Origin: Burkholderiales bacterium
GTDB lineage: Bacteria; Pseudomonadota; Gammaproteobacteria; Burkholderiales; Burkholderiaceae_C
NCBI GenBank assembly: GCA_013044035.1
Contig: JABEVE010000027.1
Coordinates: forward strand, 1-50,239
Direction of reading: 5' to 3'
DNA: 50,239 nucleotides
In this document: positions 6,576 to 15,883 of the stretch, piece by piece
Layout: every line of letters begins with the position of its first letter
Numbering within the stretch: position 1 is the stretch's first letter
Notes under the pieces: model-generated
Seen by the model: the letters and a program-made list of their open reading frames with translations, nothing else
What the model was told of the DNA's origin: nothing
The model's database searches: none
Position numbers and translations under genes: made by a program

Positions 6576-7883
6576 ATGTCCGCATCCCCCAGCACCCTGC
6601 CCCCCGACCTCGCCCAGGTCGTCAGTTGCGTCAGCGGCTACGACCCCAAGGCTTTGCCGGTGGACAAAGTGCAGGACGTCATCCGCCGTTTCGTGCGGCC
6701 CGTGCGCGTCGCCGAGCGCGTGGACCTGCGCGCCGCTCTCGGCCGGGTGCTGGCCGAAGACGTCATCGCACCAATGGACGTGCCCGCCCACGACAACTCC
6801 GGCATGGACGGCTACGCCCTGCGTTCCGACGATCTCGGCACCGATGGCGCCGCAACCCTGCGCATTGCCGGCACCGGTCTGGCCGGACACGAGTTCAGCG
6901 GTGACGTTCCCGCAGGAAGCTGCCTGCGCATCATGACCGGCGCCGTCTTGCCTGCGGGCTGCGACACCGTCGTGCCGCAGGAATTCTGCCGCGTCGACGG
7001 CGAACTGGTCCACGTCCCCCCAGGTGTGCTCAAACGCGGCGACAACGCCCGCATGCGCGGCGAAGACCTGCGTGCGGGCCAGCCCGCGCTGCCGGCCGGC
7101 AAGCTCCTGCGCCCGGCCGACATCGGGCTCATCGCCTCGCTCGGCCAGGCCGAGGTCATGGCGTGGCGCCGCCTGCGCGTGGCCTTTCTGTCCAGCGGCG
7201 ATGAACTCCGCTCCATCGGCCAGCCGCTGGGCGAGGGTTGCGTCTACGACAGCAACCGCTACACCCTCTGGGCCATGCTGCAGCGCCTGGGCTGCGACGT
7301 GCTCGATCTCGGCGTGGTGCGCGATGACCCCGCACTGCTCGAAGCCGCGCTGCGTCATGCCTGCGAAAACGCCGATGCCGTCATCACCTCGGGCGGCGTG
7401 AGTGTCGGCGAGGCCGATCATCTGCGCAGTGTCATGGCCGCGCTCGGTGATGTGGCGTTCTGGCGCATCGCCATGCGCCCAGGCCGCCCCATGGCCTTCG
7501 GCAGCATCGCCAGCCACGACCAGCGTGCCGTGCTGTTCGGCCTGCCCGGCAACCCCGTGGCGGTGATGGTCACCTTCTACGCCTTCGTTCGCGACGCCCT
7601 GTTGCACATGATGGGCGCCGCCGCCAAGCCCCTGCTCCTGCTGCCGGTCGCGGCACAGACAGCCCTGCGCAAACGCCCCGGCCGCACCGAATACCAGCGC
7701 GCCGTGCTCACCCCATTGCCGGATCAACCCGGCCGCTACTGCGCCCGCACCACCGGCGACCAGGGCTCCGGCATCCTGCGCTCGATGAGCGAGGCCGACG
7801 GCTTCATCTTCCTACGCCACGAGCAAGGCAGCGTGCAAGCCGGCGAGACGGTGGAATTTTTGCCGTTCGAGGGGTTGGTCTAG
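6576..7883 (+). CDS. moeA: Molybdopterin molybdotransferase MoeA
   Basis: MoeA inserts molybdate into adenylylated molybdopterin. The 435-residue length is normal. The N-terminal domain carries the conserved PAHDNSGMDGYALRSDD stretch near residues 68-85. The MoCF domain is seen in FLSSGDELRSIG and in SGGVSVGEADH with its Asp/His metal-site neighbourhood, followed by MRPGRPMAFG and LFGLPGNPVAVMVTF. The C-terminal beta domain follows (KRPGRTEYQRAV). It starts 9 bases after mobA and ends the moaA-mobA-moeA group. Confidence 0.95.
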   Translation: MSASPSTLPPDLAQVVSCVSGYDPKALPVDKVQDVIRRFVRPVRVAERVDLRAALGRVLAEDVIAPMDVPAHDNSGMDGYALRSDDLGTDGAATLRIAGTGLAGHEFSGDVPAGSCLRIMTGAVLPAGCDTVVPQEFCRVDGELVHVPPGVLKRGDNARMRGEDLRAGQPALPAGKLLRPADIGLIASLGQAEVMAWRRLRVAFLSSGDELRSIGQPLGEGCVYDSNRYTLWAMLQRLGCDVLDLGVVRDDPALLEAALRHACENADAVITSGGVSVGEADHLRSVMAALGDVAFWRIAMRPGRPMAFGSIASHDQRAVLFGLPGNPVAVMVTFYAFVRDALLHMMGAAAKPLLLLPVAAQTALRKRPGRTEYQRAVLTPLPDQPGRYCARTTGDQGSGILRSMSEADGFIFLRHEQGSVQAGETVEFLPFEGLV

Positions 7884-7966: not shown

Positions 7967-8410
7967 TCAAAAAATCTTGTTGATCAAGTCCTCACCCAGG
8001 CCGATGCCTGCACCCATTTCCATGGCCTGGCCGAAGCCCGAGCCGAGAAAACCGCTGAGGGCTCCCATCAACCCCCCACCGGCGGGACGGCCGTAGGCGG
8101 AGGCCATGGCACTCTGGTTCATACCTTGGGGCATGTAGCCGGGCTGGGACGCGACGGACATGGGCTGCAGTTGGTTTTGCTGGTTCTGCCACATGGCATG
8201 GATGGCCTGCAGCAACTGGTTCATCTGCTGCTGCTGGGTCTGCACGGCCAGTGCGACTTCGCGCAGGTCGAGCAGCCATTCGCGGGCATCGGTGTTGCCG
8301 CCTTGCGCGGCGGTTTGCAGCTTGCCGGCCAGAGCCTGCAGTTCCTGTGCGATGGCCTGATCCTGGGTTTGGAGTTGCTGGTAGTTCTGGTCGATGGTCT
8401 GGAGATCCAT
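7967..8410 (-). CDS. Hypothetical Gln-rich protein with glycine-rich C-terminus
   Basis: I do not recognise this 147-residue protein. From the ATG at 8410 it begins MDLQTIDQNYQQLQTQD. The first two thirds are predicted helical and glutamine-rich (QTQQQQMNQLLQAIHAMWQN), consistent with a coiled coil. The last third is glycine- and methionine-rich (GGGLMGALSGFLGSGFG) and ends EDLINKIF, with an amphipathic or weakly hydrophobic character. There is no signal peptide. It sits convergent to moeA and divergent from the amidotransferase operon. Codon use looks normal for the window and the frame is clean, so I take it as a real gene of unknown function. Confidence 0.65.
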   Translation of the reverse strand: MDLQTIDQNYQQLQTQDQAIAQELQALAGKLQTAAQGGNTDAREWLLDLREVALAVQTQQQQMNQLLQAIHAMWQNQQNQLQPMSVASQPGYMPQGMNQSAMASAYGRPAGGGLMGALSGFLGSGFGQAMEMGAGIGLGEDLINKIF

Positions 8411-8752
8411 GGTGCTTGCGTGTCGATGATGGAAGGATGCAGGGATTGTGGTGCCGGACGATGGCACGACAAGGCATCGCCTGGGTAAGGAAAAGTAAAA
8501 CAGGCGGCGAGAGTTTGCCGCGATGCCACCGTGGCGGATGACACGAAAGCCGCGAATAAGGGATGCCGGGGCAAGCGGCCGCCACCTAAGATGATCTTCG
8601 ATCTGAAGAACTCGTGCCAGGCGCGCTCTTCGTCCTTTCCACGCGCAAGGAACACACATGGCAGTCCCATGTTTGCCTGGTCGCGGGGCAGGTGTCGACC
8701 CCGCCCTGGGGCGCCTCTGAGCATCCGCCGAAAGTGAAAGGCCCGGGCTGGC
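8411..8752. other. Divergent intergenic region
   Basis: About 340 bases without a convincing gene, between the Gln-rich hypothetical (minus) and the amidotransferase operon (plus). On the minus strand a TTGTCG (8472-8467) and CACAAT (8450-8445) pair with 16-base spacing could be the hypothetical gene's promoter. A purine-rich GTGAAAGG stretch about 8735-8742 is a plausible ribosome site for the plus-strand operon. I see no riboswitch or terminator. Confidence 0.4.
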
Positions 8753-10738
8753 ATGTGTGGCATTACTGGCATTCTGGATTGGCAGCAAGCGCCGGACCCC
8801 GCCGCGGTGCGGGCCATGACGCAACTTCTGCATCACCGTGGCCCGGACGCGAGCGGCTTCCACCACGAAGGACCGATTGCGCTCGGCCATGCGCGCCTGA
8901 GCATCATCGACCTCGAAGGCGGCGTGCAGCCCATGGCGCATGCCGAACGCCAGCTATGGCTCACGTTCAACGGCGAAATCTTCAACCATGTGGAACTGCG
9001 ACGCAGCCTGCAAGCACGTGGTTGCCGTTTCGCCACGCGCTCGGACACCGAAGTCATTCTTCACGCCTATGCGGAATACGGCGACGCCTGCGTCGAGCAC
9101 CTGAACGGCCAGTTCGCCTTCGCGCTGTGGGATGCCCGCCGCCAACGTCTGCTGCTGGCGCGTGACCGCGTTGGCATACGCCCGCTGTTCTACACCCGGC
9201 TTGACGGGCCGGGGGGCGGTCGCTTCGCCTTCGCCTCGGAGGTCAAGGCGCTGTTCGCGCTGCCCGCAGTTCCACGCAGGCTCGACATCCAGGCGCTGGG
9301 CGAAATTTTCACCACCTGGGCGCCGCTGTCGCCGCATGCGGTCTTCGCCGGCGTGCACAGTTTGGGGCCAGGCGAGTGCATGGTGGTCGACGCGCAGGGC
9401 TCACGGTCCTGGCGTTACTGGGACTGGAACTTTCCGGCGCAGGGCGCTGAATCTGCCGAGCTCTACGCCAGCGCCGACGAAGCCGCTGAAGCGCTGCGCG
9501 CGTTGCTGATCGGCTGCGTGCGTCTGCAACTGCGCGCCGACGTGCCCGTGGGTGCCTATCTCAGCGGCGGGCTGGATTCGTCGGTCATCACCACCCTCAT
9601 CCACCACCACACCAGCTCGCCGTTACGCACCTTTTCGCTCACTTTCGACGACGCCGAGTTCGACGAAAGCGCCGAGCAGCGCCTGCTGGTCGACCACCTC
9701 GGTTGCGAGCACACGACCCTGCACTGCACCCGGGCCGATATTGCCGCAGCTTTTCCACTGGCCGTCTTCCATGCCGAATCTCCGATCCTGCGCACCGCTC
9801 CGGCACCGCTGATGCTGCTGGCCGGGCACGTGCGCGACAGCGGCTACAAAGTCGTGCTCACCGGCGAAGGCGCGGACGAAGTGTTCGGCGGCTACGACCT
9901 GTTCAAAGAGGCGCGCGTGCGGCGCTTCATGGCCCGGCAGCCGCAATCCGCCTGGCGCGGCGCGCTGCTGGAGCGGCTTTATCCCTACTTGCGGCATTCC
10001 CCCGCAGCCGGACGGGCGCTGGCGCAGCGTTTTTTTGCCGATGGTGCCGAGCATCTGGGCCAGCCCGGCTTCGGCCATCTGCCCCGCTGGACCACGACGC
10101 AGCGCACCTGGCAGTTTTTCTCGCCCGCCGTACGCACCGAACTGGGCGACTGGAACGCGCTGCAAGCCATCGCCAGCCAGGTGCCGCCCGAGTTCGCGCA
10201 CTGGCAGGCGCTGCTGCAAGACCAGTACATCGAGGCCCACACCTTGATGAGCGGCTACCTGCTGTGCTCGCAGGGCGACCGCATGGCCATGGCGCATTCC
10301 ATCGAGGGCCGTTTCCCGTTTCTGGACCACCGCCTCATCGCCTTCGCCAACCGGCTGCCGTCGCGCTACAAGCTGATGGGTCTGACCGAGAAATGGCTGC
10401 TCAAACGCGCCATGCGCGGACTGCTGCCCGAGAACATCCGCACCCGCACCAAGCAACCCTACCGCGCCCCCGACAGCCAGAGTTTTTTCGAGCAAGGCAA
10501 ACCGGTGGATTACGCCGCTGAGCTGATGAGCCCGGGCGCAATTGCCGACGCCGGCTATTTCGACCCCGCCGCGGTGAGCAAACTGTTCGCCAAATGCCGG
10601 GCCGGGCGGGCCATCGGCTTCGCCGACAACATGGCGTTCGTCGGCGTGCTGTCGACCATGCTGCTGCATCGGCAGTTTGTCACCATGCCGCCAGCCACCC
10701 CGCAAGCGCGGGAGTACCGGACGACGGCCTTCCCGTAA
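8753..10738 (+). CDS. Asparagine synthetase-like glutamine amidotransferase
   Basis: The 661-residue protein has both asparagine synthetase B modules. The N-terminal class-II glutaminase begins MCGITG with the catalytic Cys2 and keeps RGPDASG, FNGEIFNH and RSDTEV. The synthetase domain has the PPi-loop SGGLDSS at residues 271-277 and GEGADEVFGGYD further on. All catalytic motifs look intact, so it should release ammonia from glutamine and transfer it to an adenylated carboxylate. Downstream genes encode an AMP-forming ligase, an acyl carrier protein, an NAD-synthetase-like enzyme, a methyltransferase and a GNAT-like protein, all on the same strand. This makes a tailoring amidotransferase more likely than housekeeping asparagine synthesis. 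Similar enzymes occur in exosortase and polysaccharide loci, but no exosortase is visible here. Confidence 0.85.
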   Translation: MCGITGILDWQQAPDPAAVRAMTQLLHHRGPDASGFHHEGPIALGHARLSIIDLEGGVQPMAHAERQLWLTFNGEIFNHVELRRSLQARGCRFATRSDTEVILHAYAEYGDACVEHLNGQFAFALWDARRQRLLLARDRVGIRPLFYTRLDGPGGGRFAFASEVKALFALPAVPRRLDIQALGEIFTTWAPLSPHAVFAGVHSLGPGECMVVDAQGSRSWRYWDWNFPAQGAESAELYASADEAAEALRALLIGCVRLQLRADVPVGAYLSGGLDSSVITTLIHHHTSSPLRTFSLTFDDAEFDESAEQRLLVDHLGCEHTTLHCTRADIAAAFPLAVFHAESPILRTAPAPLMLLAGHVRDSGYKVVLTGEGADEVFGGYDLFKEARVRRFMARQPQSAWRGALLERLYPYLRHSPAAGRALAQRFFADGAEHLGQPGFGHLPRWTTTQRTWQFFSPAVRTELGDWNALQAIASQVPPEFAHWQALLQDQYIEAHTLMSGYLLCSQGDRMAMAHSIEGRFPFLDHRLIAFANRLPSRYKLMGLTEKWLLKRAMRGLLPENIRTRTKQPYRAPDSQSFFEQGKPVDYAAELMSPGAIADAGYFDPAAVSKLFAKCRAGRAIGFADNMAFVGVLSTMLLHRQFVTMPPATPQAREYRTTAFP

Positions 10739-10832
10739 GCTCAATGGCGTTCCGACTTGCACCTCCTCGATCGCGCTCACGGCGCCACAAGGTGCACCGT
10801 TCCCGCATCCCTGATCCAGTCCTGCCCCTGCC

Positions 10833-12386
10833 GTGCGACTTCACGATTTTTTCGCCTCCGCCGCAGTTCGCCTTGCCACCAAGACCGCGCTCGTGTGTGA
10901 CGGGCGACGCAGCAGCTACGCCGACATCGCTGCGCAGGCCCAGGCGCTGGCACTCAGCCTGCACCAGCATGGCATTCGCCGCGGCGACCGCGTGGCACTG
11001 TTTCTCGACAACTCCGAAGCGATGGTCGCAGCCGTGTTCGCGGTGCTGCAAGTGGGTGCTGTGTTCATGCCGGTCAACACCCTGACCAAGGCTGACAAGC
11101 TGGCCTATATGCTCAATGACGCGCAAGCCAGCGCGCTCGTGACGCAAACCGCGCTCACCAGCGTCGCGAGCGGAGCCCTGACGCTTGCGCCCAGCGTGCA
11201 TGCCTGCTGGATGTTGGGTGACGCAACTCCTGCCGACGCCACACAGGCCACCATCGGCCACGCCACATGCCTGCCCTATCCCGCAGGACGGCCAGCGGAT
11301 ACCCCATTGCACCCGCTGGACGCTGCGGTGATCGACCAGGACCTGGCGGCCATCATCTACACCTCCGGTTCCACCGGCCACCCCAAGGGCGTGATGCTCA
11401 CGCACCTGAACATGATCACCGCGCAACAGTCCGTGAGCCAGTACCTCGGCCTGCACGAAGATGACATCATCGCCTGTGCCCTGCCGCTGGCGTTCGACTA
11501 CGGGCTGTATCAGGTGTTGATGGCGTTCAAGCTTGGTGCCACCGTGGTGCTGGAACGCTCGTTCACCTATCCGGTCAAGGTGCTGCAGACCATGGCGCGC
11601 GAAGGCGTGACCGTGTTCCCCGGCGTGCCCACCATGTTCGCGCTGCTGACCGCGCTGAACAACCTGGCCGACTTCGATCTCTCCCGTCTGCGCCTGATCA
11701 CCAACACCGCCGCAGCCTTGCCCGAGTCGCATATCCGTCGCATGCGCGAACTCTTTCCCCGGGCCAAGCTGTACTCCATGTACGGCCTCACCGAATGCAA
11801 ACGCGTCACCTATCTGCCCCCCGAGCAACTCGACATCCGCCCCACCAGTGTGGGCCGCGGCATGCCCAATGAAGAGGTCTGGCTGGTGGACGACGCCGGT
11901 CGCCGTCTGCCCAACGGCAGCACCGGCGAATTGGTGATTCGTGGCAGCCATGTCATGCGCGGCTACTGGAACAAACCGGCAGAAACCGCCGAGCGCCTGC
12001 GCCCCGGCCCGCTGTCGGGGGAACTGGTGCTGTACTCGGGCGACGTGTTCCGCACCGACGCCGAGGGCTGGCTCTACTTTGTCGGCCGCAAGGACGACAT
12101 CATCAAAAGCCGTGGCGAGAAGGTCAGCCCGCGCGAGGTGGAAAACGTGCTGTATGAGTTGCCTGGCGTGCTTGAAGTGGCCGTGGTCGGCGTGAACGAT
12201 GCCTTGCTCGGCCAGGCGGTGAAGGCTTTCGTCGTGCTGGCGCCAGGGCGTGCCTACACCGAACGCGACGTCATCAAGCATTGCCACGCGCGGCTGGAAA
12301 ACTTCATGGTGCCCAAGAGCGTGGAATTTGCCACCAGCCTGCCTCGCACCGACACCGGCAAAATCCGGAAAACCGGATTGTGCTGA
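10833..12386 (+). CDS. AMP-forming acyl-CoA/acyl-ACP ligase
   Basis: The 517-residue ANL-superfamily enzyme should adenylate a carboxylic acid and pass it to a thiol. It has the P-loop IIYTSGSTGHPKGVMLTH near residues 172-190 and the A5-type motif YSMYGLTECKRVTYL. The hinge motif reads YSGDVFRTDAEGWLYFVGRKDD, and the C-terminal catalytic lysine lies in PRTDTGKIRKTGL. It resembles the AMP-ligases of exosortase-associated loci. The start is GTG at 10833, with no obvious Shine-Dalgarno sequence. An ACP gene begins 78 bases downstream, so the likely acceptor is the ACP phosphopantetheine rather than free CoA. The acid substrate is unknown. Confidence 0.88.
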   Translation: MRLHDFFASAAVRLATKTALVCDGRRSSYADIAAQAQALALSLHQHGIRRGDRVALFLDNSEAMVAAVFAVLQVGAVFMPVNTLTKADKLAYMLNDAQASALVTQTALTSVASGALTLAPSVHACWMLGDATPADATQATIGHATCLPYPAGRPADTPLHPLDAAVIDQDLAAIIYTSGSTGHPKGVMLTHLNMITAQQSVSQYLGLHEDDIIACALPLAFDYGLYQVLMAFKLGATVVLERSFTYPVKVLQTMAREGVTVFPGVPTMFALLTALNNLADFDLSRLRLITNTAAALPESHIRRMRELFPRAKLYSMYGLTECKRVTYLPPEQLDIRPTSVGRGMPNEEVWLVDDAGRRLPNGSTGELVIRGSHVMRGYWNKPAETAERLRPGPLSGELVLYSGDVFRTDAEGWLYFVGRKDDIIKSRGEKVSPREVENVLYELPGVLEVAVVGVNDALLGQAVKAFVVLAPGRAYTERDVIKHCHARLENFMVPKSVEFATSLPRTDTGKIRKTGLC

Positions 12387-12464
12387 AGTCCGAACCGGCT
12401 CCAACATCGCCTAACTTCACGCCACCATCGCAACAGCGACCACGACACCGTCAAGGGAAACACC

Positions 12465-12728
12465 ATGGCCGACATCAAAACCGAGGTTCGACGCTACATC
12501 GACGACAACTTCATCATGGGCTCCAGCGGCGCCCCATTTGCCGACGCCGACTCGCTGCTCGACCTGCATATCGTCGACTCCACCGGCATTCTCGAACTCA
12601 TCCTCTTCCTGGAAGAGACCTTCGGCATCCAGGTGCATGACGCCGACATGGTGCCGGAAAACCTCGACAGCCTGAACGCCATCGAGGCCTATGTCCAGCG
12701 CAAGCACCTGGCGCGGGTCGCGGCGTGA
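12465..12728 (+). CDS. Acyl carrier protein
   Basis: This 87-residue acidic carrier protein has the phosphopantetheine attachment site at Ser39 in the motif DST, where housekeeping AcpP has DSL. The following helix ILELILFLEETFGI is typical of carrier proteins. The sequence is far from fatty-acid AcpP and resembles stand-alone carriers encoded beside AMP-ligases. Its stop overlaps the GTG start of the next gene (12725-12728), implying translational coupling to the NAD-synthetase-like enzyme. It probably carries the acyl group activated by the upstream ligase. Confidence 0.9.
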   Translation: MADIKTEVRRYIDDNFIMGSSGAPFADADSLLDLHIVDSTGILELILFLEETFGIQVHDADMVPENLDSLNAIEAYVQRKHLARVAA

Positions 12729-13756
12729 GCGTGCCTGCGCCAGCTCTTGCAACCATGCACTGTTCGGCAGCGCTCACGGCGGACGTGTTCACGCTCGACT
12801 GCGCCGCCGAGGTCGAGCGCATCGGCCGGCACTTGCGCGCCAGCCTGGCGTCCATGCACAAGCGTGGCGTGGTGCTGGGCCTGTCGGGCGGTGTCGACAG
12901 TTCGGTCTGCGCGGCCCTGGCGGTGCACGCCCTGGGGCCCGCCAAGGTACAGGGCCTGCTCATGCCCGAGCAAGACTCCAGCGCCGACAGCGCCGACCTG
13001 GGCACGGCCGTCGCCGCCCGGCTCGGCCTGCGTTGCATCACCGAAAACATCGCCCCAACACTGACAGCCATCGGTTGCTACCGCTGGCGCGACGACGCCA
13101 TCCGCATGCTGTTCCCGGATTACGACGAAACCTGCAAATGCAAGATCGTGATCGCCAGCGGCTCAGCCGGCAAGGTGCATTTCTTCGACCTCGTTGTGCA
13201 GACGCCAGGCGGCGCAGAACGGCGCGCGCGCCTGCCGTTACGCGAATACCTGCAGATCGTCGCCGCCACCAACTACAAGCAGCGCATCCGCAAGACCGTG
13301 GAATATTTTCATGCCGACCGACTGAACTACGCCGTGCTGGGCACACCCAACCGGCTGGAATACGACCAGGGCTTTTTCGTCAAGAACGGCGACGGCGCCG
13401 CCGACATCAAGCCCATTGCCCATCTCTACAAAACCCAGGTCTACGCCCTGGCGCGCCACCTCGGCCTTCCCGAGGCCGTGTGCTCTGCCGCGCCCACGAC
13501 CGACACCTATAGCCTGCCCCAGGGCCAAGACGAGTTTTATTTCGCCCTGCCCTACGCGCAAATGGACCTGGCGCTGTGGGCGCACAACCACCTCCGCCCA
13601 GCAGCCGAACTGGCCACCGCCCTTGGTCTGAGCGAGGAAATTGCTGCGGGCATCTACACCGAAATCGAAGCCAAGCGCCGTGGCACACGCTACTTGCACC
13701 TGCGCCCGCAACTGGTGGAACCGCTGGCCGAGGTCTGCCCCAAGGAAGCCCCTTGA
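12725..13756 (+). CDS. NAD synthetase-like ATP pyrophosphatase
   Basis: The 343-residue protein is related to ammonia-dependent NAD+ synthetase. The PP-loop is LGLSGGVDSS (residues 51-60), and the C-terminal ammonia/NaAD-site region is well kept: LGTPNRLEYDQGFFVKNGD followed by DIKPIAHLYKTQV. It is about 70 residues longer than typical NadE. The extra length lies between the PP-loop and the GTPN motif, in a stretch with CKCKIVIASG. Its GTG start overlaps the ACP stop. True NAD synthesis is possible, but the operon (amidotransferase, ligase, ACP) suggests amidation of a carrier-bound or related carboxylate. The family call is firm and the substrate is inference. Confidence 0.8.
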   Translation: MSVPAPALATMHCSAALTADVFTLDCAAEVERIGRHLRASLASMHKRGVVLGLSGGVDSSVCAALAVHALGPAKVQGLLMPEQDSSADSADLGTAVAARLGLRCITENIAPTLTAIGCYRWRDDAIRMLFPDYDETCKCKIVIASGSAGKVHFFDLVVQTPGGAERRARLPLREYLQIVAATNYKQRIRKTVEYFHADRLNYAVLGTPNRLEYDQGFFVKNGDGAADIKPIAHLYKTQVYALARHLGLPEAVCSAAPTTDTYSLPQGQDEFYFALPYAQMDLALWAHNHLRPAAELATALGLSEEIAAGIYTEIEAKRRGTRYLHLRPQLVEPLAEVCPKEAP

Positions 13757-13761
13757 ACACG

Positions 13762-14739
13762 ATGCCGCTCCCCGCCACCCATTCGACGGACCAAAGCCAT
13801 GATGCTGTCGTGCTCGGCCCGGATTACGCCGCTCGGCTGCACCGGCTCGAGCAAACCCTGTCCACCCTGCCCGACAAGCCCGAGGAAACACCCGACTCCT
13901 GCCTGCGAGCGCTGTGGCACATGGCCAGCGGCATGGCCTTGTCGGTTGCCGCGGCACACGACCAGACTCTGCCCACGCTGGACACCGCGCGATTGGCCGC
14001 ACTTGATGTGCTGATCGCACGCCGTCTGCAAGGCGTGCCCGTGGCTTACATCACCGGCCGCCAGCGCTTCATGGGGCTGGATCTGCTCGCCGGGCCCGAG
14101 GCACTGATTCCACGCCGCGAGACCGAAATGCTCGGCGTTGCGGCGCTTGCCAAGCTGCGCGAACGGGTGGCTGCGCACGGCGCGGCGCAAGTCATCGATG
14201 TGTGTTGCGGTTCGGGCAACCTGGCCCTGGCGCTGGCTGCAGCCGAACCCAAGTCACAAGTCCATGGCGCCGACCTCTCCGCCAAGGCCATCACGCTGGC
14301 TGGCAGGAATGTCGCATTGCTGGGCCTGGAGGAACGCGTCACGCTGCATACCGGCGACCTGCTGTCGCCGTTCCATGCTCCGGAGTTTCAAGGTCACATC
14401 GATTTGATCGTGTCCGCCCCGCCCTATATCTCCTCCGCCAAGCTGGACATCATGCCAGCGGAAATCATCCGCCACGAGCCAGCACTGGCGTTCGACGGTG
14501 GCCCGTTCGGCGTGGGTATCCTGATGCGCCTCATCCGCGAATCTCCTGCATTGCTGCGCGCCGGAGGTTGGCTGGGCCTGGAAGTCGGCCTGGGGCAAGG
14601 ACCGGCCATGCAGCAGATGCTGCGCAAAAGTGCCAGCTTCGACACGATCGACGCCGTGTGCGACGCCGGCGGCCAGATCCGCGTGCTGCTCGCCAAGAAG
14701 CGCGAGATGACGGCGACCAACGCCGACGATCGTGGCTAG
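13762..14739 (+). CDS. PrmC/HemK-like methyltransferase with altered NPPY motif
   Basis: The 325-residue class I SAM-dependent methyltransferase has the PrmC layout: an N-terminal helical domain, then GVPVAYITGRQRFMGLDL and LIPRRETE (residues 91-122), then the SAM motif VIDVCCGSGNLALALA (residues 144-159). The catalytic motif reads APPYIS (Ala219 first) instead of NPPY; in PrmC that Asn contacts the glutamine amide being methylated. The methyl acceptor is therefore probably not release-factor glutamine. I place the start at the ATG at 13762, 5 bases after the preceding stop. The stop overlaps the next start by 8 bases. Confidence 0.82.
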   Translation: MPLPATHSTDQSHDAVVLGPDYAARLHRLEQTLSTLPDKPEETPDSCLRALWHMASGMALSVAAAHDQTLPTLDTARLAALDVLIARRLQGVPVAYITGRQRFMGLDLLAGPEALIPRRETEMLGVAALAKLRERVAAHGAAQVIDVCCGSGNLALALAAAEPKSQVHGADLSAKAITLAGRNVALLGLEERVTLHTGDLLSPFHAPEFQGHIDLIVSAPPYISSAKLDIMPAEIIRHEPALAFDGGPFGVGILMRLIRESPALLRAGGWLGLEVGLGQGPAMQQMLRKSASFDTIDAVCDAGGQIRVLLAKKREMTATNADDRG

Positions 14740-15883
14740 CGCGCCCGAGCAAGCCAGCTACCGGGTCGAGCCTGCCGATCTCGACAAAGACGCAGCGCAG
14801 ATCGTCGCGCTCTGGTCGCTCAACCTCGGCCACGCCGAACGCAGGCAAGCCAAGTTCGACTGGTTCTATCGCAACAATCCGACGGGCATCCCGCAGGTCT
14901 TGTTGCTCAAGCAAGGACAGAGCGTGGAGCCTATCGGCACCGTCGGCCTGGGCGGCCGCATCATGCGTTGCGGGCCGCATTCGGTGCGAGCCGGATTGAT
15001 GGCCGACTTCGCCGTGAACATCCAGCATCGCACCTTGTTCCCGGCACTGACGCTCCAGCGTGCGGTGCTGGAGCAGGGTCTGGCACGGCATGAACTGCTG
15101 TACGGCTTCCCTAACGCCAAATCCCTGCCCGTGGTCCAGCGTGCCGGCTTCGATGTTGCCGGTGGCCTGAGCCGCTATGTGCGCGTGCTGCGCACCCAGG
15201 ACTATTTGCCGAATTGGCTCCCAAGACAGCTGCGTCGCGGCCTCGGTGGCGGACTCGATATCGCCTTGCGACTGCGCCACGGGCTGCTGTCCAGGCTGCT
15301 GCTGCGGGAGCATGCCCAGACGGCGTGGCTGGATCGGGCCGACGCGCGTTTCGACAGCTTGTGGGCCGAACACCAGGTGGGCAACGCTGGCGTCATCGGC
15401 GTGCGCGACAGCGCCTTTCTCAACTGGCGCTTCCGCTCCACAGCGGCGCATCGCTACCGCATTTTCACCCTCGTCAGCGCAGCATCTGACCCCTCCCGCG
15501 AGCCCGCAAGCAGGCCTGCACCGGCAACTCGCCAGAGCGTTGGCATCGCGTCGATGCCAACCGCCGAGAAGTTGCTCGGCTATGCCGTGTGCGAAACCGA
15601 CGGGACATCGCTGCAAGTGCACGACTTGCTCGCAGCAAACCCTGCGTCGCGACATCTGCCGATTCTGCTGCGCCTGCTTACGCGTGACGCGCGCCGGCAG
15701 GGTTGTCGCAGCGTCTCGCTGGAATTCATGGGGGAGTCCGACTTGGTCACGCTCTTGCTGCATGCCGGGTTTCGCGTGCGTGAGTCTCGCTCCCAGCCTG
15801 TCATTCTCGCCATGTCGGCGCCGATGCGGGCCGTCATGCAGAACCGCTCCTGGTACCTCACCCGGGCCGACGTCGACACCTGA
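14732..15883 (+). CDS. GNAT-like N-acyltransferase, possible surface-glycan tailoring enzyme
   Basis: The 383-residue protein starts with GTG at 14732, overlapping the methyltransferase stop by 8 bases, and ends the operon. The N-terminal half resembles GNAT acyltransferases found in exopolysaccharide loci: RRQAKFDWFYRNNPTG, then VRAGLMADFAVNIQHR, then YGFPNAKSLPVVQRAGF, the acyl-CoA-binding region. The C-terminal half repeats a GNAT-like strand pattern (LQVHDLLAANP, SVSLEFMGESD). Residues about 252-277 form a Pro/Ser/Arg-rich insert between two strands that contains a perfect inverted repeat in DNA. Donor and acceptor are unknown. By operon context it may transfer the carrier-bound acyl group. 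Confidence 0.65.
   Translation: MASAPEQASYRVEPADLDKDAAQIVALWSLNLGHAERRQAKFDWFYRNNPTGIPQVLLLKQGQSVEPIGTVGLGGRIMRCGPHSVRAGLMADFAVNIQHRTLFPALTLQRAVLEQGLARHELLYGFPNAKSLPVVQRAGFDVAGGLSRYVRVLRTQDYLPNWLPRQLRRGLGGGLDIALRLRHGLLSRLLLREHAQTAWLDRADARFDSLWAEHQVGNAGVIGVRDSAFLNWRFRSTAAHRYRIFTLVSAASDPSREPASRPAPATRQSVGIASMPTAEKLLGYAVCETDGTSLQVHDLLAANPASRHLPILLRLLTRDARRQGCRSVSLEFMGESDLVTLLLHAGFRVRESRSQPVILAMSAPMRAVMQNRSWYLTRADVDT
15539..15561. repeat. Inverted repeat inside the GNAT-like gene
   Basis: A perfect 10-bp inverted repeat (GTTGGCATCG / CGATGCCAAC) with a 3-base loop lies in the region coding a low-complexity, Pro/Ser-rich segment that interrupts the expected strand order of the protein. It may be part of an in-frame repeat insertion, but it shares no clear core with the elements in the polysaccharide locus. 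Confidence 0.5.

Follow-up and report, generated by a model that had tools for sequence, protein, structure and literature searches.

A conserved acyl-carrier-protein gene module with NAD-synthetase-like and PrmC-like enzymes in a Burkholderiales genome

The operon and its relatives

The DNA examined here, referred to as the window, is a 50,239-nucleotide stretch of contig JABEVE010000027.1 (C63 in our numbering of the contigs) from the genome of a Burkholderiales bacterium (assembly GCA_013044035.1). Between positions 8753 and 15883 it carries six packed open reading frames, all on the plus strand and all confirmed by translation, with junctions of +94, +78, -4, +5 and -8 bases between consecutive genes; the last four overlap or lie no more than 5 bases apart. 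They encode an AsnB-type glutamine amidotransferase, an AMP-forming ligase, an acyl carrier protein (ACP), a NAD-synthetase-like (NadE-like) ATP pyrophosphatase, a PrmC-like methyltransferase and a GNAT-like protein. A preliminary description, made from the letters of the DNA only, had already read them in this way; its layout agrees with our coordinates and junctions, and its family assignments hold, through models for AsnB, the ligase, the NAD synthetase and PrmC, through a motif for the ACP and through a predicted fold for the GNAT. The genes belong to a real and conserved module, and it is well supported that this module is split into two flavours. New here are a VinN-type amino-dicarboxylate code in the ligase and the joint coming and going of that code with the PrmC-like gene.

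The amidotransferase (8753..10738, 661 amino acids) retains its N-terminal cysteine and has Asn_synthase (PF00733) and GATase domains in Pfam; it scores 502 bits on TIGR01536 (cut-off 267) and 443 bits on the XrtA-type model TIGR03108, below the cut-off of 817. The ligase (10833..12386), which has an AMP-binding match, is predicted from the residues it shares with VinN to load an aspartate-like amino-dicarboxylic acid onto the ACP. The ACP itself (12465..12728, 87 amino acids) falls short of the cut-off in all its profile matches (45 bits of 130 in NCBIfam, 17 of 20.8 for PP-binding) and is recognised by a DSTG motif, containing Ser39, that is kept across an alignment of 76 relatives. The NadE-like protein (12725..13756, 343 amino acids) and the PrmC-clade methyltransferase (13762..14739) follow. 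The last protein (14732..15883) has no match in Pfam, in NCBIfam or among the sequences of the PDB; its AlphaFold model (pLDDT 89.9) resembles tandem-GNAT structures (Foldseek E 3e-12, TM about 0.56-0.59), which makes it a candidate acyltransferase.

A genome scan with the NadE-like protein gave 569 relatives, the best 80 of which, together with the window and one further locus (L036), form a set of 82 loci that includes close pairs such as L036 and L046. Within a neighbourhood of -7.5 to +5.5 kb around the NadE-like gene, an ACP is found at 76 of these loci, a ligase at 75 and an AsnB at 64. In an even sample of the phylum the NadE-like family occurs in 18 of 397 genomes, and 16 separately fetched loci from these, belonging to several orders, have an ACP and a ligase in every case and an AsnB in 14; no such ligase, ACP or AsnB lies at any of 36 control loci around the housekeeping NadE and PrmC genes of the same 18 genomes. 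The core genes recur, in shuffled order, beside NadE-like genes of other families and classes; this and the empty controls argue that the grouping is not due to chance, and the six genes almost certainly form one functional module. The sampled genomes of the other class are apparently Alphaproteobacteria, judging by their likeness to the plasmid loci described below. Over both sets a ligase accompanies the NadE-like gene at 91 of 98 loci, and ligase counts refer to these 91; the others (L074, L081, L084, L087, L103, L107 and L116, some of them at contig ends) have none above the threshold. The co-occurrence expected in the preliminary description is thus seen for AsnB, ligase, ACP and NadE, and in one flavour for PrmC, the GNAT being less constant. 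At eight Thiomonas-type loci without a nearby AsnB (L043, L044, L045, L047, L048, L051, L053 and L058), the opposite strand carries a glutamine synthetase and a MoCF-type gene.

The operon had also been called undescribed, which does not stand. On the pSymB plasmid of Sinorhizobium meliloti, asnB, an ACP gene, an AMP-binding ligase gene and nadE form one run, and the ligase has the same DYTKR code as that of the window; the four core genes lie side by side on one strand in the window and in the plasmid loci of S. meliloti and S. medicae, where the module adjoins minCDE. The operon SMb20650/SMb20651, published by Ramos-Vega in 2009, is reportedly one that also contains asnB and nadE. Because replicon, gene kinds and motif all agree, the pSymB core is very likely this same operon, with the four-gene core, the DYTKR ligase and the DST-motif ACP in common with the window. 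It differs in that the ACP precedes the ligase and that the PrmC-clade gene lies about 12 kb off rather than adjacent; no GNAT was found by profile in the stretch of S. meliloti examined. Excerpts from the earlier work state that SMb20650 is cotranscribed with the ACP SMb20651 and acylates holo-SMb20651 in E. coli (PMC7232532), that SMb20651 has a DST motif and is "of unknown function" (PMC12391972), and that its function needs study (PMC5686131). We found no account of what the module does in the open-licence literature, so that it is not undescribed, yet unexplained.

The NadE-like and PrmC-like enzymes

The NadE-like protein is an apparent member of the NAD synthetase family, with an NAD_synthase match and 478 bits on NF002048, the NCBIfam model for NAD(+) synthase (cut-off 313). 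It shares the ATP-pyrophosphatase motifs of that family (the P-loop, GT-N-E and GDG-AD) as well as the fold: its AlphaFold model (pLDDT 88.9) matches NAD synthetases and the nicotinamide mononucleotide (NMN) synthetase variant 3fiu. It differs from ordinary NadE in an inserted region, in its linkage to a ligase and an ACP, and in the presence of a housekeeping copy elsewhere. The insertion (13112..13240, roughly residues 130-172), which is absent from ordinary NadE, is modelled as three strands; compared with 3fiu and 2e18, the stretch that does not align has 46-52 extra residues. Many residues, including lysines and arginines, are invariant across 59 rows of the family; together with the longer stretch, this would suit a different but conserved substrate. 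Among the best 80 of the 569 relatives, the nearest are L038 and L039, the latter from Thiomonas delicata, which makes a Thiomonas-like host probable; within the order only 2 of 300 genomes have the gene above the NF002048 cut-off.

The window genome has a separate, full-length NAD_synthase (225.9 bits, contig C91), and the module copy is therefore not its sole NAD synthetase. A further match outside the module is present in all 18 sampled module genomes; 16 of the 18 matches are nearly full length and exceed 225 bits, and those of G510 and G449 are partial, at 82-83 bits, in long frames. It is likely that the NadE-like enzyme amidates a carboxylate other than that of deamido-NAD.

The PrmC-like protein is related to the release-factor glutamine methyltransferase PrmC/HemK, sharing with it the model TIGR03534, whose cut-off (199.1 bits) it barely exceeds at 200.5. 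It is the third copy in the window genome, where the family matches score 249 bits (C57), 201 (module) and 177.5 (C36), and another PrmC above the TIGR03534 cut-off lies elsewhere in all 18 module genomes. The preliminary description would have been refuted had the NadE-like and PrmC-like proteins been the only ones of their kind, which they are neither in the window genome nor in the rest of the sample. For PrmC, the suggested comparison with housekeeping copies gave a maximum-likelihood tree in which a branch of support 100/99 parts 39 module PrmC rows from 23 housekeeping PrmC/PrmB rows. A search with a profile built from the module clade detects its gene in 9 of the 397 genomes, each of which also belongs to the 18 with a NadE-like gene; in eight it lies within about 5 kb of that gene and in G602 about 24 kb from it. 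The module PrmC of G602 (G602:C11:82885-83676) has a profile match that extends past its 232-amino-acid open frame into upstream stops.

Unlike PrmC/HemK, the window protein has APPY (14416..14427) where the amide-binding NPPY motif would be. Among the 39 module proteins with a readable motif, 20 have NPPY and 19 have alanine or leucine in place of the asparagine, these being 17 rows of the window's own clade plus L095 and L108. The housekeeping frames in the tree were picked for containing NPPY, so their motif is no test of this difference. A 195-amino-acid PrmC fragment at L080 was left out of the tree and is included in the count of 40 loci given below.

A VinN-type code in the ligase and its association with PrmC

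Among solved structures, VinN (3wv4/3wvn) comes closest to the window ligase in its core region. According to excerpts of a review (PMC11253843), which lists these structures as VinN, the enzyme binds 3-methylaspartate with D230 at the amino group and F231, S299, K330 and R331 in the pocket. In the window ligase these positions correspond to D222, Y223, T292, K323 and R324, with the K-R loop ungapped; we count threonine for Ser299 as a conservative match, and the PDB chain numbering of VinN is higher by 16, as counted by hand from the alignment. The codon of Asp222 (11496..11498), the predicted anchor of the amino group, is found only in what we call D-code ligases, and those of Lys323-Arg324 (11799..11804) encode the predicted contacts to the free carboxylate, the arginine being present in 91 of 91 ligases. 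When the nearest ligase is taken at each locus, 40 read DYTKR, one reads DYTQR, and 50 have another residue for Asp222 and alanine for Thr292. An amino-acid code common to every ligase was considered and rejected, Asp222 occurring in 44 of the 91 when the best-scoring ligase per locus is taken. The non-D ligase of L050 is closest to feruloyl-, oxalyl- and malonyl-coenzyme A (CoA) ligases.

The ligase code is closely tied to the methyltransferase. By nearest ligase, a PrmC-clade gene lies nearby at 40 of the 41 D-code loci and at none of the 50 others; put the other way, each of the 40 loci that carry a module PrmC is of the D-code kind, and the sole D-code locus without a nearby one, L148, belongs to G602, the genome with the distant copy. 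At the level of whole genomes (n=18) the module PrmC is present in 9 of 9 D-code genomes and in 0 of 9 others. On the NadE-like tree the joint state of D-code and PrmC needs 8 changes (8-9 in bootstrap trees), of which well supported branches force at least 4; this implies that ligase flavour and methyltransferase were swapped together more than once, the NadE-like enzyme staying in place. L061, L073 and L089 were labelled on that tree by a farther D-code ligase and so sit in the group with D-code and no PrmC, leaving the 40-row group with both unaffected. That a single active-site residue of a ligase is gained and lost together with a whole methyltransferase gene gives a strong handle on the chemistry.

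Plasmids were sampled by means of the NadE-like protein, which occurs in 116 records, and 15 loci, none of them part of the earlier sets, were chosen by hand to span the genera. Nine of these have DYTKR, five of them with a PrmC nearby, and none of the six non-D loci has a nearby PrmC. The other four D-code loci are from S. meliloti and S. medicae, and three of their records have the module PrmC 10-12 kb away (L233 left out). Counted as totals per genus, the records with PrmC and with NadE number 75 and 76 for Sinorhizobium, 9 and 9 for Ensifer, and 6 and 7 for Mesorhizobium; the same search found no PrmC in plasmid records of Azospirillum (12 NadE), Shinella (8), Rhizobium (2), Nitratireductor (1) and Roseateles (1). 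The second DYTKR ligases of L089 (9509-11080, minus strand) and L061 (6349-8046, plus strand) lie 3-6 kb from the module ligase and reach 479-491 bits on the exosortase-A ligase model, short of the cut-off.

Proposed chemistry, alternatives and surroundings

What we observe directly is the set of genes, the conservation of the module, the presence of NadE and PrmC copies elsewhere in the genomes, and the ligase code with its link to PrmC. From there we offer as a reasoned prediction a carrier-protein pathway that produces an amidated acyl group; we hold this tentatively as the best explanation, and each reaction, the order of reactions, the substrate and the acceptor are what we infer. The ligase would adenylate a dicarboxylic acid (in the window one of the amino-dicarboxylic kind, for example L-aspartate) and load it onto the ACP through one carboxyl. 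That the acid on the carrier is dicarboxylic is probable, and we lean slightly towards its being aspartate-like in the D-code flavour. The NadE-like enzyme would activate the free carboxylate with ATP and convert it to a carboxamide, and AsnB might draw the amide from glutamine, supply ammonia or form a second amide. The PrmC-clade enzyme may methylate a nitrogen of the bound amino acid or of its amide; PrmC methylates a glutamine amide, which makes such a nitrogen the natural guess, and methylation on the same group is conceivable, if somewhat doubtful. The tandem GNAT would finally transfer the completed group to an amine, which in many of the relatives is probably that of an amino sugar in a surface polysaccharide. 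The earlier proposal, in which a carrier-loaded acid undergoes amidation or methylation, agrees with the ligase code and with the genes present, the reactions keeping the standing of prediction.

The nearest known counterpart is the VinN/VinL (VinO) system of vicenistatin biosynthesis, which likewise has a stand-alone ligase with a 3-methylaspartate/aspartate code and a stand-alone carrier and in which, according to excerpts of the literature, the second carboxylate is processed on the carrier. VinO strips that carboxylate as CO2; the window module has instead two amide synthetases and a methyltransferase, with no polyketide synthase, and none of its six proteins matches a VinO-type decarboxylase in Pfam or NCBIfam.

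The acceptor is a separate matter. Markers of polysaccharide genes accompany 34 of 81 genome-contig loci and, in the sample, 8 of 17 loci, L036 among them. Since the marker profiles were derived from gene groups around the studied loci, only L142-L157 (16 loci) count, with the 36 controls, as out of sample; there the markers are found at 7 of 16 loci and 0 of 36 controls. Excerpts of the literature describe bacterial glycans whose amino sugars bear aspart-4-yl and 4-malyl groups, so that a glycan acceptor is chemically reasonable, and we think it quite possible. The transfer to a glycan that the preliminary description wrote down for this operon is, however, suggested only by the neighbourhoods of some relatives. 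XrtA-type polysaccharide genes surround several of the relatives' modules, and the XrtA/PEP-CTERM exopolysaccharide regions, with the ligase TIGR03098 and the amidotransferase TIGR03108, contain the same broad kinds of enzyme; the window proteins fall below both cut-offs (477 of 592 and 443 of 817), and the window genome has no exosortase. A dependence on XrtA/exosortase, raised by some gammaproteobacterial neighbourhoods, was rejected at the genome level.

Several observations weigh against the pathway as proposed. The asparagine lost from 19 of 39 module PrmC proteins counts against simple amide N-methylation in the window lineage, and the Asp anchor is missing from the ligases of half the module loci. 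A D-code ligase does not by itself imply a PrmC, given that L061, L073 and L089 carry second D-code ligases with no PrmC in the stretch examined. The GNAT is missing near many modules and comes in several sequence types, other loci having FemAB-like, other GNAT-like or thioesterase proteins instead; a nearby AsnB is missing in ten loci close to Thiomonas; and at L103, on a contig labelled Planctomycetes, the NadE-like gene stands alone with no other module gene within reach. As to the glycan, an exosortase is present in only 1 of 18 module genomes as against 94 of the 397 sampled, and no polysaccharide marker lies beside the window operon, which sits between moeA and isc genes.

The idea that the NadE-like protein is merely a second NAD synthetase with unrelated neighbours would agree with the name given by NF002048 and with the intact P-loop, GT-N-E and GDG-AD motifs; the other copy in 18 of 18 module genomes, the constant company of ligase and ACP and the 46-52-residue longer stretch with its invariant residues make it hardly credible. 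A fatty-acid or lipid pathway, in which the ligase would be of the long-chain acyl-ACP type and the remaining enzymes would decorate a lipid, is very improbable too, VinN being the closest solved core, oxalyl-, malonyl- and feruloyl-CoA ligases the nearest to the non-D relative, and Arg324 invariant; excerpts of PMC7232532 state, furthermore, that SMb20650 is unable to replace FadD in growth on oleate or in fatty-acid accumulation. It is also improbable that sugar-nucleotide uronic acids, which are nucleotide-linked like deamido-NAD, are what AsnB and the NadE-like enzyme amidate, with the ligase, ACP and GNAT performing a separate acylation of the same polysaccharide. The many invariant lysines and arginines of the NadE-like family would suit a nucleotide substrate, and excerpts of the literature record uronamides in polysaccharides and AsnB-type genes named wbpS in a polysaccharide cluster. 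However, the NadE-like gene is tied to the ligase and ACP even where no AsnB or polysaccharide genes are nearby, and no sugar-nucleotide genes lie beside the window operon.

A released product, that is, a free small molecule such as an amidated or methylated aspartate derivative or a small peptide in place of a glycan substituent, deserves more attention, though we consider it unlikely. It would account for the 47 of 81 genome-contig loci, the window included, that lack any polysaccharide marker used and for the position of the S. meliloti and S. medicae modules beside minCDE, and some loci of the other class (L144, L148 and L152) have a thioesterase or a 911-amino-acid adenylation-thioesterase protein that could release a thioester. 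Against it stand the markers at 7 of 16 out-of-sample loci and at none of the 36 controls, and the many loci accompanied by GNAT or FemAB-like proteins rather than thioesterases.

Returning to the carrier-bound amide pathway, its widest form would have a NAD-synthetase fold turned, across the Proteobacteria, into an amidating enzyme for carrier-held dicarboxylic acids, with two interchangeable flavours, one a VinN-type amino-dicarboxylate ligase with a PrmC-clade enzyme, the other a plain or hydroxy-dicarboxylate ligase with neither Asp anchor nor methyltransferase, both putting amide-capped aspart-4-yl/malyl-type acyl groups on surface glycans. Taken whole, this is on the doubtful side; if true, it could account for the arrival of aspartyl- and malyl-type groups on bacterial glycans. 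The NadE-like gene is named "NAD(+) synthase" or left unlinked in hundreds of records, names which, if the pathway is real, hide a carrier-bound amide chemistry. For an orphan carrier protein of rhizobia, known since 2009, the proposal also provides a function that can for the first time be put to the test, and this in the genetic model S. meliloti.

There remain some minor observations on neighbouring genes. At L146, L147, L149 and L152 a frame of 911-930 amino acids adjoins D-code modules of another class; that of L152 (6181-8916), which by its sequence consists of an adenylation domain and then a thioesterase domain, could play the part of VinM or set the product free. In Azospirillum, an annotated GNAT gene comes immediately 3' of nadE. 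In the window, a scan for promoters and terminators did no better than on shuffled sequence (0 promoters against 1.0, 7 terminators against 5.4). Judging from the translations, the operon is flanked by moeA-type genes at 6576-7883 and by opposite-strand ferredoxin and HscA-type (isc) genes from 15915 onwards. A minus-strand frame at 7967-8941 lies between moeA and the operon, and its downstream part encodes a Gln-rich, Gly/Met-rich protein.

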